DNA from: Candidatus Methylacidiphilales bacterium
Lineage (GTDB): Bacteria > Pseudomonadota > Gammaproteobacteria > JASGCS01
DNA: 64,000 nt
NCBI GenBank assembly: GCA_030054035.1
Contig: JASGCS010000001.1
Span: forward strand, 62,001 to 126,000
Reading direction: 5' to 3'
The translations under genes and the position numbers were made by a program. This document shows, piece after piece, positions 45,209 to 50,489 of the stretch (positions within the stretch are counted from its first letter, which is position 1; the number at the start of each line of letters is the position of its first letter). The notes under the pieces were generated by a model that made no database searches, was not told where the DNA came from, and saw nothing but the letters and a program-made list of their open reading frames with translations.

Positions 45209-46144
45209 ATGAAGCAAATTAATTTTTTTAAATTTTATATTATTTTAGTTGCCATTTCAACAATGGTGATTTTAGCTTCTTTTTCACTTATTATGATGGG
45301 AAAATTAAATTTAGGCATTGAATTTACTGGAGGGTATTTAATTGAGGTTTCTTCTGATTCTACAATAAATACTGATATTCTGAAAGAAAAAATTGAAAAA
45401 AGTGGCTTGGCTGTTTCTTCAATACAATATCTTGATGACACAAGACACGCTCAAATAAGGCTCTTTCCAGTCGATGACCCTCAAAAAAAATCCGATCAGT
45501 CTTCTGTGAATAATTATGTTTTGAGCACTATGAGTAATATTATTCCAAATATTACAAAAAGTGAATTTATTGGCCCGTCTGTTGGGGAAACTTTAAAATT
45601 TAGTGGTTCGATCGCTTTCATAGCGTCTCTTGTATCGATATTGCTTTATCTTTTGTTACGGTTTAATCTCATATTGTCAATTAGTGCGATTATTTCTCTT
45701 CTCCACGACGCTTCCGTTGTGTTACTATTTTTTCTTCTAACTAAAAATACCTTTGATTTAAACGTCTTGGCGGCGATACTGGCAATTATGGGCTATTCTC
45801 TCAATGATAACATTGTCATTTATGATCGATTTAGATCAAATTGTCTAATCCATGAACATGAGTCCATTAAATCTATTTTTAATCTTTCAATAAATCAAAT
45901 GTTAAAAAGAACTATACTAACTTCTGGAGTAACCATGCTCTCAGTGCTTTCATTGTATTTTATTGGCGGAGTCTCACTAAAAGAATTTTCGCTTGCTTTA
46001 ATTGTAGGAATTATTACTGGAACATACTCAACAATTTATATTGCAAGTGGGCTTGCTATTTTATTTGGTGCACAGCGAATTGTCTCTAACGCCTCCACCC
46101 AAAATGAAGACAACGATTATTATCTAAAGAAGTTCTCTAAGTAG
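45209..46144 (+). CDS. secF: Protein translocase subunit SecF
   Basis: Partner of SecD, 311 residues with six helices. GKLNLGIEFTGGYLIEV near the start and MGYSLNDNIVIYDRFRSN with its conserved Asp match the family. The ATG at 45209 is preferred to 45194, which would overlap secD. The last 21 bases overlap the convergent suhB-like gene. Confidence 0.96.
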   Translation: MKQINFFKFYIILVAISTMVILASFSLIMMGKLNLGIEFTGGYLIEVSSDSTINTDILKEKIEKSGLAVSSIQYLDDTRHAQIRLFPVDDPQKKSDQSSVNNYVLSTMSNIIPNITKSEFIGPSVGETLKFSGSIAFIASLVSILLYLLLRFNLILSISAIISLLHDASVVLLFFLLTKNTFDLNVLAAILAIMGYSLNDNIVIYDRFRSNCLIHEHESIKSIFNLSINQMLKRTILTSGVTMLSVLSLYFIGGVSLKEFSLALIVGIITGTYSTIYIASGLAILFGAQRIVSNASTQNEDNDYYLKKFSK

Positions 46145-46876
46145 GATATCTTGATTGGACACCAGGAAGTCTACTGCTTGAAAGTGTCCCCCTATAATAT
46201 ACTCCACACTGTTAAGTGGTGATTTTATGGTCTTTATACTTCCTCCGGCTTCAAGTATTAATAAAGATAAACTGTCATGTAATGGGTTTGATAAAGGTAT
46301 TAATAAAGCATCTACCCTAGACATCGCTACTAGTCCGTAAAGAATTTGAAAGTTACCAAATACACGAGGGGTGTATTTATTATTGTTTAAGTTAAATGCT
46401 TTAATACTTTCAAAATCACAACCAACCGTGTAATGAATTTTATCAACGGATTGCTTGCATCTAATTCTCCTTTGTTCGTAGTAGCTCCCAGATCCTTTAA
46501 TTGCATAATAAAGCACATTATTAAAAACTTCCAATAAAACAACACCTTGAGTGACTCCATTTTTTTTCCAAGCAACACTTATCGTGTAGGGGTATTGATA
46601 TCGAATATAATTTTTTACTCCATCAAATGCAAAAATATACCATGATAACTCCAAAGCCCCATCGTTTTTTTCATATTCTTTATAAACAGACATCGAAGGA
46701 TATGATTTTTGAAGTAGCTCAACAAAAATGCTGTGGATTTTGGAATTAATCTTGTCTTCAAAATCTTCAGTAATTTCAGGTAATTTAGAATGTATTTTCC
46801 GTAAAACTTCCCCAACTGATACGCAAGATTTTTTAGCTACTTCAGCAAGAGCTTCGTTATTAAAACTTTCAGTCAT
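46124..46876 (-). CDS. suhB: SuhB-like inositol monophosphatase-fold protein with degenerate active site
   Basis: 250 residues aligning over their length with SuhB: KSYPSMSV, SWYIFAFDGVKNYIRYQYPYTISVAWKKNG, GSGSYYEQRRIR and ILEAGGSI. The catalytic motif, normally W-x-(I/V)-D-P-(L/I)-D-G-T, is here WYIFAFDGV (79-87), so the first metal Asp is Phe82 and Thr is Val87. The upstream E-E pair is KEYE, and the C-terminal P-W-D is PLHD. Phosphatase activity is therefore doubtful. E. coli SuhB also acts, without catalysis, in the rRNA antitermination complex. Location beside the isc genes is typical of suhB in Gammaproteobacteria, though usually on the same strand. Confidence 0.85.
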   Translation of the reverse strand: MTESFNNEALAEVAKKSCVSVGEVLRKIHSKLPEITEDFEDKINSKIHSIFVELLQKSYPSMSVYKEYEKNDGALELSWYIFAFDGVKNYIRYQYPYTISVAWKKNGVTQGVVLLEVFNNVLYYAIKGSGSYYEQRRIRCKQSVDKIHYTVGCDFESIKAFNLNNNKYTPRVFGNFQILYGLVAMSRVDALLIPLSNPLHDSLSLLILEAGGSIKTIKSPLNSVEYIIGGHFQAVDFLVSNQDILLRELL

Positions 46877-46945: not shown

Positions 46946-47338
46946 ATGGCATATTCAGAAAAAGTACTTGAGCATTATTCAAATCCTAAAAATGTAGGTT
47001 CACTTTCAAAAGATGATTCAAATGTTGGAACTGGTTTGGTCGGTGCACCAGCCTGTGGGGATGTTATGAAATTGCAGATCAAAGTTAATGAACTGGGAAT
47101 TATTGAAGATGCAAAATTTAAAACTTATGGTTGCGGCTCAGCTATTGCATCTTCGTCACTAGTTACACAAATGTTACTTGGAAAAAATATTTCCGAAGCA
47201 CAGCAAATTAAAAATTCTGATATTGCGGAAGAGCTTTTACTTCCACCAGTTAAAATACATTGCTCTGTACTTGCTGAAGAGGCGATTAAATCTGCTATTA
47301 AAGATTTATTGTCAAAGAAAAAAAATGCATCTAACTGA
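46946..47338 (+). CDS. iscU: Iron-sulfur cluster scaffold IscU
   Basis: Scaffold on which [2Fe-2S] and [4Fe-4S] clusters are built, 130 residues. All three cysteines (37, 63, 106) and Asp39 are present (PACGDV, YGCGSAIASSS, IHCSVLAEEA). LPPVKIHC (99-106) is the HscA recognition motif and is intact. The usual upstream iscR and iscS are missing: the gene before it is suhB on the other strand. IscA overlaps its end by 14 bases. Confidence 0.97.
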   Translation: MAYSEKVLEHYSNPKNVGSLSKDDSNVGTGLVGAPACGDVMKLQIKVNELGIIEDAKFKTYGCGSAIASSSLVTQMLLGKNISEAQQIKNSDIAEELLLPPVKIHCSVLAEEAIKSAIKDLLSKKKNASN

Positions 47339-47642
47339 ATCTGCTGTAAAACATATAAAAAAACAATTAATTACAAGAGGTAGAGGGATCGGTATGAGAG
47401 TTGGTTTGCTTTCTTCAGGATGCTCTGGTTATGAATACTCCTTTGAGTTTTTAGACTCAATTCAAGCAGGTGAAACAATAGAAATGCACCAAGACTTAAC
47501 ATTGGCAATTCCTAATAATTTTTTTACTCAACTAAATGATCTTACAATTGATTTCGTAACAGAGGGGTTGCAGAGTGGGTTAGTGATCCAAAACCCAAAT
47601 GAAAAAATAAAATGTGGATGTGGAAAAAGTGTTGGTTTCTAG
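47325..47642 (+). CDS. iscA: Iron-sulfur cluster assembly protein IscA
   Basis: A-type carrier, 105 residues. The start MHLTESAVKHIKKQL is typical; the three cluster-binding cysteines are in LLSSGCSGYEYSFEF and in the C-terminal CGCGKS. It delivers clusters to apoproteins, mainly [4Fe-4S]. I use the ATG at 47325 because the longer frame before it runs through iscU. Overlap with iscU is 14 bases. ErpA is the alternative, but context supports IscA. Confidence 0.94.
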   Translation: MHLTESAVKHIKKQLITRGRGIGMRVGLLSSGCSGYEYSFEFLDSIQAGETIEMHQDLTLAIPNNFFTQLNDLTIDFVTEGLQSGLVIQNPNEKIKCGCGKSVGF

Positions 47643-47669
47643 TCATCAGTATCCTGGAATTGCTTTTAT

Positions 47670-48125
47670 ATGCCAACCAAAAATTATTTCAGTATATTGC
47701 AACTTGATATTAGATGCGATTTAGATAGAAAAACTCTAGACTCCCATCTAATTACCTTACTTGACTCTACTCAGAATAATAAAGAAGAAATTCTTGAAGC
47801 GTATTCTGTACTTAAAGATAAATACGAAAGATACAAACACATTGTGTTTTTACTTAATCCAAATACTGATATGTCCATGGAAAAGCACTCTGTTTCAGTA
47901 GTGTTACAAGCTTCACAATGGTATGAAGAACTTGAAAATGTTTCAAATAAAAATGCCCTCGCTCAACTAATTGAAAAATATGAATTCATCCATGATGAAT
48001 GTTATGAAAAAATTAAGCAAAATAATTTTTCAGAAGATTGTGTGAATTACTTGGTTAAGTTAAACTATTTAAGACGATTTTTACAATACAGTAAAGAAAA
48101 ATTTCTTATCGCGTCTAGTCAGTAA
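47670..48125 (+). CDS. hscB: Fe-S co-chaperone HscB with no HPD motif
   Basis: 151 residues placed between iscA and hscA. The N-terminal pattern YFSILQLDIRCDLDRKTLDSHL and the later KNALAQLIEKYEF, with a C-terminal three-helix-like part (KLNYLRRFLQYSKEKF), align with HscB. In J-domains, HPD lies between helices 2 and 3 and activates the partner ATPase. Here helix 2 ends in LITLLDSTQNN (27-37), and about a dozen residues including HPD are absent. So the J-function is probably altered or lost, while the IscU-binding part is retained. Assignment rests on context and pattern. Confidence 0.8.
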   Translation: MPTKNYFSILQLDIRCDLDRKTLDSHLITLLDSTQNNKEEILEAYSVLKDKYERYKHIVFLLNPNTDMSMEKHSVSVVLQASQWYEELENVSNKNALAQLIEKYEFIHDECYEKIKQNNFSEDCVNYLVKLNYLRRFLQYSKEKFLIASSQ

Positions 48126-48130
48126 ACATA

Positions 48131-49939
48131 ATGCCCACATTTATTCAAATTAAAGATTCTAGTAAAGAAAAAAATATAGACCAAGTTATTTTTGGAATCG
48201 ACTTAGGCACTTCACAATGCGTAGTTTCTTGGTATCAAAACGGTGAGTTTAATTTTGTTTTGGATGAAAATGGCTCACGTACAATACCTTCGTTGCTAAT
48301 ATTTGACACTGACGCAAATTTAATTATAAGTCAGGAAAATAAAAATTCAGAGAACTCTACATCTATAATATCTACTAAGCGATTACTCTCGCTTACTCAA
48401 GATGAATATAATCAATTGAAAGATAAGTTACCGTATTCCACCTCCTTTGAAAGTGAGTTAGGAGTGGTGATTCATTTGGGCCAGCAACGTATTTTACCTT
48501 CAAGTTGCGCGCAGTTTCTGTTGACCTATTTAAAAAATTTAACTATCAGTACAAAGAAATTTCAACAAGAAAAACTTAGATGCGTGATCACTGTTCCGGC
48601 ATGGTTTAATGAATTACAAAGAAGATTGATAAGGCACGCTGCAATTCTTTCGGATTGGGAAGTCTTGGGATTAATAAGTGAGCCTACTGCTGCCGCGTTA
48701 TCTTATTTTCATAATAATCCTAAAGATGGAGTCTATTTGATTATTGACTGCGGTGGAGGGACAACAGATATTTCCGTGGTTAGACAATCAAATACCACCT
48801 CTTTAGTAGTTTATTCTAAAGGAAATAATCAGTTAGGAGGCGATGATATAGATTCGTGTCTGTATAATTATATCCATAACTCAAAAAACCCAACTCAAAA
48901 TATCGATCATGTTACTTTGTTAGAAATTAAAAAAATTAAAGAACAATTTACTCCATTGACAAAAATAGAAGTTACTTCACGTGAGGATGGATCGAAAATT
49001 AAAATTGACTTCCCATTATTTAGTCAAATTGTTCGGCCTTTTATAGATTCATTTACTGAACTTTTAAATCAAGTTATTGATGAATTACATGAACTTGAAA
49101 TTAATCCTGATGTTGTTATTCTTACCGGAGGCACATGTCAATCTCCAATTATTGAGCCAATTATAAGAGGGAAGTTTCCAATTCTCGAAATTTTTAACCA
49201 CAATCCTTTGACTGCAGTTTCACAGGGCGCTACGCTACACGGTAATTACTTGTTAGGAACTGGCCAAGTTCGATCTAAACTTATTGATACATTGCCATTT
49301 TCAGTAGGTGTTGAAACCTATGGAGGGGTTATGGAGAAAATTATCCCTCGCCTAACGGTACTTCCCGCAAAATGTACCCGAGATTTCACTACGTGGTCTG
49401 ATAATCAAAGTGGCATGGTTTTTACTTTATACCAAGGTGAGCAGGAGCAAGTTACTTTGAATCGATGTTTAGGTGCATTTACGCTTTCAAAATTAACTAA
49501 AACATTTGCTGGTTTGATTAGAGTACGATTTGAATTACAAATAGATTCCGACGGAATTATTACTGCCAAAGCAACCGAACATAATAAAGCAAATTCTGTA
49601 GCCTACGATGTTCAAGTGGATCGCTCTATTTCTCAAACAGAGCAAGTATCAAATGATTGTGAATTTGTTCAAATTACCAATGCACGTTTAAATGCTTACC
49701 GTATTCTTCACCATATTAAACAACTATCCGAATTACGACCTCTCCCCAGTGAAATTAAGTTACAAGTTCAATCGTTAAATAGCAGCTTGCAGAATTCTAA
49801 TTTCGAAACTCTTCTCGCTTCAATTTCTAAATTAGAAGAAATCTCAAAAAACTACGTATCTGATGTGCTTTCTGATACGTTACATAACACCATGGTCGGT
49901 AAGCAAATTAACAATATTAGCAATAAATATAATGAATAG
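48131..49939 (+). CDS. hscA: Hsp70-type Fe-S chaperone HscA
   Basis: Specialised Hsp70 that releases clusters from IscU, 602 residues, close to E. coli HscA. ATPase blocks are FGIDLGTSQCVVSW, VITVPAWFNELQRRLIRHAA, SEPTAAALSYF, IIDCGGGTTDISVV, LGGDDID and LTGGTCQSP. The linker and start of the substrate domain are LPFSVGVETYGGVMEKIIPR and EFTTW-like DFTTWSDNQ. The protein is more diverged than usual (for example DCGGGT for DLGGGT), matching its changed partner HscB. fdx overlaps its end by 8 bases. Confidence 0.92.
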   Translation: MPTFIQIKDSSKEKNIDQVIFGIDLGTSQCVVSWYQNGEFNFVLDENGSRTIPSLLIFDTDANLIISQENKNSENSTSIISTKRLLSLTQDEYNQLKDKLPYSTSFESELGVVIHLGQQRILPSSCAQFLLTYLKNLTISTKKFQQEKLRCVITVPAWFNELQRRLIRHAAILSDWEVLGLISEPTAAALSYFHNNPKDGVYLIIDCGGGTTDISVVRQSNTTSLVVYSKGNNQLGGDDIDSCLYNYIHNSKNPTQNIDHVTLLEIKKIKEQFTPLTKIEVTSREDGSKIKIDFPLFSQIVRPFIDSFTELLNQVIDELHELEINPDVVILTGGTCQSPIIEPIIRGKFPILEIFNHNPLTAVSQGATLHGNYLLGTGQVRSKLIDTLPFSVGVETYGGVMEKIIPRLTVLPAKCTRDFTTWSDNQSGMVFTLYQGEQEQVTLNRCLGAFTLSKLTKTFAGLIRVRFELQIDSDGIITAKATEHNKANSVAYDVQVDRSISQTEQVSNDCEFVQITNARLNAYRILHHIKQLSELRPLPSEIKLQVQSLNSSLQNSNFETLLASISKLEEISKNYVSDVLSDTLHNTMVGKQINNISNKYNE

Positions 49940-50273
49940 AATCTCAATATTACCTCATCCAGTATATTGTCCTCAGGGTATTGATATAAATCAACCGAGT
50001 ACAAACTCATCATTATTGGATATATCACTTTCCCATGGAATTAAAATTGAACATGCGTGTGAAAAAGTATGTGCTTGCACTACTTGCCATGTCTTTATTA
50101 GAGAGGGTCTCCACTTATTTTCCCCACCAACAGATCTTGAAGATGATATGCTCGATCGAGCTTGGGGGCTTGAGTCAGTATCTAGATTAAGCTGCCAAGC
50201 AATTTATACTGGTGGATCTATAATAGTTGAAATTCCAAAATACTCTATCAATCACGCCCAGGAAAATAAATAA
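49932..50273 (+). CDS. fdx: ISC-type [2Fe-2S] ferredoxin
   Basis: Adrenodoxin-type ferredoxin that supplies electrons for cluster assembly, 113 residues. Cluster ligands are in HACEKVCACTTCH (C-x5-C-x2-C) and SRLSCQA. The ATG at 49932 gives MNRISILPHP, near the usual start; the longer frame runs back into hscA. The gene overlaps hscA by 8 bases and iscX begins 3 bases after. Confidence 0.95.
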   Translation: MNRISILPHPVYCPQGIDINQPSTNSSLLDISLSHGIKIEHACEKVCACTTCHVFIREGLHLFSPPTDLEDDMLDRAWGLESVSRLSCQAIYTGGSIIVEIPKYSINHAQENK

Positions 50274-50276
50274 ATC

Positions 50277-50489
50277 ATGGAAAATAAAAAAATATATTGG
50301 TCAGATATCTACGAAATTGTTGATTACTTAGAACAAGCACATACTGAGCAAGATCCTCGTACTGTGCTCTTTGCCACGTTATATGGTTGGATTATTTCAA
50401 TTCCTAACTTTGCAGATGACCCCAAAAAGTGCAATGAAAAAATTTTAGAAAGAATTCAACAGACATGGTGTGATGAGCGAGGTGGTTAG
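50277..50489 (+). CDS. iscX: Fe-S assembly protein IscX
   Basis: Small acidic protein, 70 residues, that binds IscS and iron in E. coli. WSDIYEIVDYLEQAHTEQDP matches the family start W-x-D-x-x-x-I-A-x-x-L, followed by F-x-x-L-x-x-W (here LFATLYGWIISIPNF) and IQQTWCDE. Its retention implies that an IscS-type desulfurase exists elsewhere in the genome. It is the last isc gene before ndk. Confidence 0.93.
   Translation: MENKKIYWSDIYEIVDYLEQAHTEQDPRTVLFATLYGWIISIPNFADDPKKCNEKILERIQQTWCDERGG

Follow-up and report, generated by a model that had tools for sequence, protein, structure and literature searches.

An HscB without its HPD motif beside an HscA without the matching arginine in a gammaproteobacterial isc operon

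The isc operon and its genome

The window analyzed here is a stretch of 64,000 nucleotides from Candidatus Methylacidiphilales bacterium. Open reading frame calls and family profiles placed in it an isc operon with the order iscU-iscA-hscB-hscA-fdx-iscX, tightly spaced on the forward strand (Table 1); hscB stops at position 48125 and hscA starts at 48131, the two genes nearly abutting. A previous sequence-only reading had assigned the gene at 47670-48125 to the hscB position, which its location between iscA and hscA bears out, and had described the LPPVK motif of IscU (47240-47254) as intact, as we also found.

Table 1. Genes and motifs of the isc operon, in window positions.
Feature	Position	Strand	Remarks
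iscU	46946..47338	+	Fe-S scaffold; TIGR01999 at 214 bits, above the cut-off of 192
LPPVK motif of IscU	47240-47254	+	Hsp70-binding motif, intact
iscA	47325..47642	+	TIGR02011 at 89 bits, below the cut-off of 150.6; Cys motifs GCSGY and CGCG kept
hscB	47670..48125	+	151 aa; J-domain without HPD, deletion of 16-17 residues; TIGR00714 at 32 bits, E 1e-7
Gln-Asn-Asn codons at the HPD columns of hscB	47772..47780	+	Deletion starts directly after
hscA	48131..49939	+	602 aa, full-length Hsp70, strongly diverged; TIGR01991 at 341 bits
GGA (Gly) at the DnaK R167 position of hscA	48668..48670	+	From the alignment of HscAs
Phosphate loop DCGGGT of hscA	48746..48763	+	Catalytic residues kept; only Leu195 replaced by Cys
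CAC (His) at the DnaK Q378 position of hscA	49238..49240	+	From the alignment of HscAs
Interdomain linker of hscA	49277..49288	+	Lys-Leu-Ile-Asp for Leu-Leu-Leu-Asp; L390K and L392I at near-invariant Leu
fdx	49932..50273	+	Start overlaps the hscA stop; TIGR02007 at 145 bits, above the cut-off
iscX	50277..50489	+	TIGR03412 at 83 bits, above the cut-off

The source genome, an assembly of 1.72 Mb with 16 contigs and a completeness of 96%, is the sole member of its order among the sampled genomes, the relatives found being at the class level. Its gene content suggests Gammaproteobacteria. Its iscS gene is detached from the operon and lies about 70 kb away on the same contig, outside the window (G000, C1:178842-180041). 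Since SufB was not found in a search of the genome, ISC appears to be its only system for Fe-S assembly. A SuhB-like protein encoded at 46124-46876 on the reverse strand adjoins the operon, as in E. coli; this protein is probably catalytically dead because its metal-binding motif is degraded (IFAFDGV and NPLH in place of IDPLDGT and RPWD of E. coli), and it may have kept a non-enzymatic role, by analogy with E. coli SuhB, which is annotated as a Nus factor.

Loss of the HPD loop from HscB

The best family of the hscB product is TIGR00714, its score lying under the curated cut-off of 46.75 bits; when an HMM was built from 48 other HscBs, the window protein being excluded, it scored 36.7 bits. 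Neither the protein nor its locus in the genome gives a match to the Pfam DnaJ domain (PF00226), its J-like helices are visible only through alignment with HscBs, and E. coli HscB does not detect it in a pairwise comparison, the divergence being too great. The Pfam domain HSCB_C matches at 19.0 bits (cut-off 22.1). The hot-spots for IscU binding, reported as L92, L96 and F153 (PMC3040723), are altered (L92V, L96S and F153Y), with E100 kept. Homology to HscB, as proposed previously, is upheld, while the IscU-binding C-terminal part is recognizable but weak. A single-sequence AlphaFold model had a mean pLDDT of 44.5, too poor to judge the fold.

HPD, called invariant in Hsc20/HscB by reviews (PMC9596805), is absent, as the earlier reading had claimed. 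In alignments with 47 and then with 122 HscBs its columns read QNN, and a deletion of the following 16-17 columns takes away the loop together with the first half of helix III; the motif is therefore replaced, and the structure directly after it is lost as well. The description of helix 2 as running straight into the next helix was roughly right, although a short TQNN turn is left between them. By comparison, HPD is kept in all 121 other distinct full-length HscBs collected from the class, and the only two further sampled HscBs lacking it are fragments at contig ends. Loss of positive charge in helix II was discarded as a distinctive feature, as helix II contains just one K/R in 8 of the 122 other HscBs too. 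In the literature searched, whose partial coverage makes this weak evidence, we found no earlier report of an HscB without HPD.

The two circumstances named by the earlier reading as speaking against its claim were looked for, and neither was found. None of the six frames of 47600-48130 encodes HPD, and an alternative start cannot bring it back because the hscB frame extends only 9 codons upstream (open frame of 160 aa). No second HscB is found in the 96%-complete genome, whose one recognizable J-domain belongs to DnaJ; this protein keeps the motif, reading YHPDK, so the change is specific to the HscB/HscA pair. Our HscB sample was collected through the C-terminal Pfam domain, a search which at E 0.01 misses the window HscB itself, and this sampling bias was corrected by inspecting every IscU-bearing genome without an HscB match. 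Scans of the contigs of the sampled genomes, using this HscB and HscA as queries, turned up no relative, and a scan of viral contigs for HscB sequences found none.

Changes in HscA: contact residues, ATP site and rates

HscA residues are given in E. coli DnaK numbering, read against the K-12 sequences. The best NCBIfam match of the protein is TIGR01991, under the cut-off of 708.55 bits, and in the tree it groups with HscAs apart from DnaKs (100 SH-aLRT) on a very long branch. In the DnaJ-DnaK crystal structure R167 and Q378 of DnaK hydrogen-bond the aspartate of HPD (PMC8215388), R167 being the arginine contacted by that aspartate (PMC8215388, PMC7289447, PMC13012618). Both positions are changed in the window HscA: R167G, where 122 of 122 other HscAs of the class have Arg, and Q378H, where 121 of 121 have Gln, each replacement being unique in the sample. 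The DnaK of the same genome keeps R167. The latch partners of R167, D393 and D481, are kept in the window HscA, and further changes lie near the linker and the J-domain dock (Y145W, E217L, L390K, L392I, N415L).

The ATP site retains 19 of 21 conserved residues (T12S and R345Q are changed), versus 10 of 18 in the J/linker set; both sets were picked partly from general knowledge and the counts are given without a statistical test. The arch of the peptide pocket is aromatic, with W where other HscAs have F or Y. Other candidate positions proved less informative. The phosphate loop DCGGGT had been put forward as the mark of a diverged HscA; the loop is there as read and the divergence is real, but this is a minor change, since 12 of 121 other HscAs carry Phe or Met instead of that Leu. 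R167G and Q378H, which the earlier reading did not mention, are more telling. Asn170 is weak evidence (S, A or T in 10 others), and the acidic J-contacts of DnaK, E206, D211 and D477, were set aside because they are not conserved in HscAs generally.

The branch of HscA measures 3.46 changes per site, about seven times the median of 0.47, compared with 2.92 for IscA, 0.99 for Fdx, 0.76 for IscU, 0.61 for IscS and 0.39 for the DnaK of the genome. Acceleration thus falls mainly on HscA, HscB and IscA; the branches of IscU, IscS, Fdx and DnaK are modestly long or not long at all. IscA, although strongly accelerated, keeps its three cysteines. The reading frames of hscB and hscA are intact despite saturating divergence. 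HscA retains 87 of 133 universally conserved columns and 8-19% in each of the less conserved classes; this steep climb of retention with conservation, together with the residues kept in the ATP site, argues that its sequence diverged under selection. Nevertheless, as 35% of the near-invariant residues are lost, the changes at R167 and Q378 are not improbable in themselves: assuming independent losses, both would disappear by chance with a probability of about 0.12. An HPD-less HscB together with an R167G HscA is seen in this one genome only.

In three other genomes of the class (G030, G175 and G220) the isc operons (L170, L172 and L174, respectively) have iscS, iscU, fdx and iscX and no hscBA, and HscB was detected nowhere in G030 and G175, both near-complete, or in the partial G220. 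These are apparent cases of outright loss of hscBA with iscX retained, so that such loss is a real evolutionary route in the class. As for the other IscU-bearing genomes without an HscB match, one has only iscS-iscU and two are cut by contig ends; a degenerate hscBA pair was seen in none of those inspected.

A possible J-independent Hsp70 and its alternatives

In ordinary pairs HscA receives IscU from HscB, whose HPD aspartate pulls R167 off D393 and D481, freeing the ATPase. This scheme follows work in which the aspartate displaces R167 from D393 of the linker and D481 of the SBD, driving hydrolysis, and in which basal ATPase rises and J-stimulation weakens when R167 or its partners are altered (PMC7289447, PMC13012618). 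According to studies which both papers cite, D35N of DnaJ and variants of DnaK at R167 are mutual suppressors. In the pair described here, with the HPD loop gone from HscB and R167 and Q378 gone from HscA, the latch on which a J-domain acts would be absent; HscA could hydrolyze ATP without J-stimulation, driven by its basal activity and by the LPPVK loop of IscU when bound, and HscB would persist only as a weak IscU-binding adaptor. Because the aspartate and the arginine are both missing, as in a natural counterpart of the suppressor pair, HscA most likely would run without J-stimulation and respond directly to its client IscU. We infer from sequence a raised basal ATPase of HscA, an adaptor role for HscB and continued function in Fe-S assembly.

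The reading we prefer, at a probability of about 0.48, is that this is a true HscB/HscA pair in which both partners have given up their part of the J-domain switch, so that HscA is unlatched and client-driven and HscB is an adaptor for IscU. The stronger statement, that the pair is a natural and functional Hsp70 system independent of a J-domain, in which HPD and the arginine latch were lost together and a J-less adaptor serves a client-driven chaperone, is plausible but somewhat against the odds. A different mode of action, in which HscB serves purely as an adaptor for IscU, had been suggested before and is partly supported; R167G, Q378H and the kept ATP site speak for it more than the evidence first offered, while the eroded IscU patch, the acceleration and the loss of hscBA elsewhere speak against it.

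Those last observations also bear on the main rival view, that hscB and hscA are losing function by relaxed selection and stand midway to deletion, IscS, IscU, IscA and Fdx sufficing for the clusters, which we regard as quite possible though not the outcome to bet on. It would account for the outright loss of hscBA in the three class genomes, for the extreme divergence of HscB, HscA and IscA and for the weakened IscU-binding residues of HscB; moreover, E. coli is viable without hscA, with slower growth (PMC8215388). On the other hand, both frames have stayed open through saturating divergence, neutral drift would not give an ATP site with so many residues kept nor favour the universal columns, and the in-frame deletion of HPD is matched by a change at the site which it contacts in HscA. 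The many HscA changes at the J/linker dock (Y145W, E217L, L390K, L392I and N415L) may be read in another way, with the shortened HscB still docking on HscA and stimulating it through a new HPD-free interface co-evolved with the linker and the NBD surface, and stimulation of Hsc70 is on record, as cited in PMC13254874, for an analogue of the J-domain designed without HPD; half of helix III of HscB is missing, however, and we consider this unlikely. An error of assembly or sequencing, or an intact second HscB that was missed, is very improbable even with a genome in 16 contigs and 96% complete: the deletion of about 50 bases is clean and in-frame and comes with three replaced codons, it lies on a 476 kb contig between intact neighbours, its counterpart changes are in a separate gene, and the genome has no other HscB and a single recognizable J-domain.

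The dismantled pair can be compared with several known systems. It resembles HscB/HscA (Hsc20/Hsc66) of ISC bacteria, E. coli among them, in gene order, in its IscU client with LPPVK and, weakly, in the C-terminal domain of HscB, and its HscA shares with theirs the HscA-type N-terminal extension, the aromatic arch and the place among HscAs in the tree; it differs in the missing HPD and truncated J-domain, in R167G and Q378H, and in scores that fall under the family cut-offs. Type IV J-proteins such as Pam16/Tim16 and DNAJB13 are likewise J-protein homologues without HPD and keep another role, but they retain a recognizable J-domain, whereas the window HscB has no PF00226 match. Furthermore, Pam16 acts beside an intact Pam18, while here the sole dedicated partner is hit and the Hsp70 itself lacks the matching arginine. 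The E. coli suppressors DnaJ D35N and DnaK R167, as cited in PMC7289447 and PMC13012618, likewise lack the aspartate in one partner and the arginine in the other; those are point mutants made in the laboratory, and their J-domain is otherwise whole, in contrast to a natural pair from which the whole HPD loop is gone. DjlB/DjlC with HscC of E. coli join a diverged Hsp70 to a J-protein of altered motif, although HPE departs little from HPD and, according to PMC13254874, no other replacement is tolerated. The same review calls it enigmatic whether deviations from HPD in J-proteins, 'type IV' included, are accidental or selected.

In this organism an Hsp70 pair dedicated to a single client has lost the key contact from both partners, and the intact DnaJ/DnaK of the same genome offers an internal control, making possible a direct test of whether a latch-free Hsp70 works without a J-domain. 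The case also raises the question of a stable solution versus a step towards the loss of hscBA; judged by its genes, this HscB/HscA may be a natural Hsp70 system that does without the usual switch, or a system on its way out.
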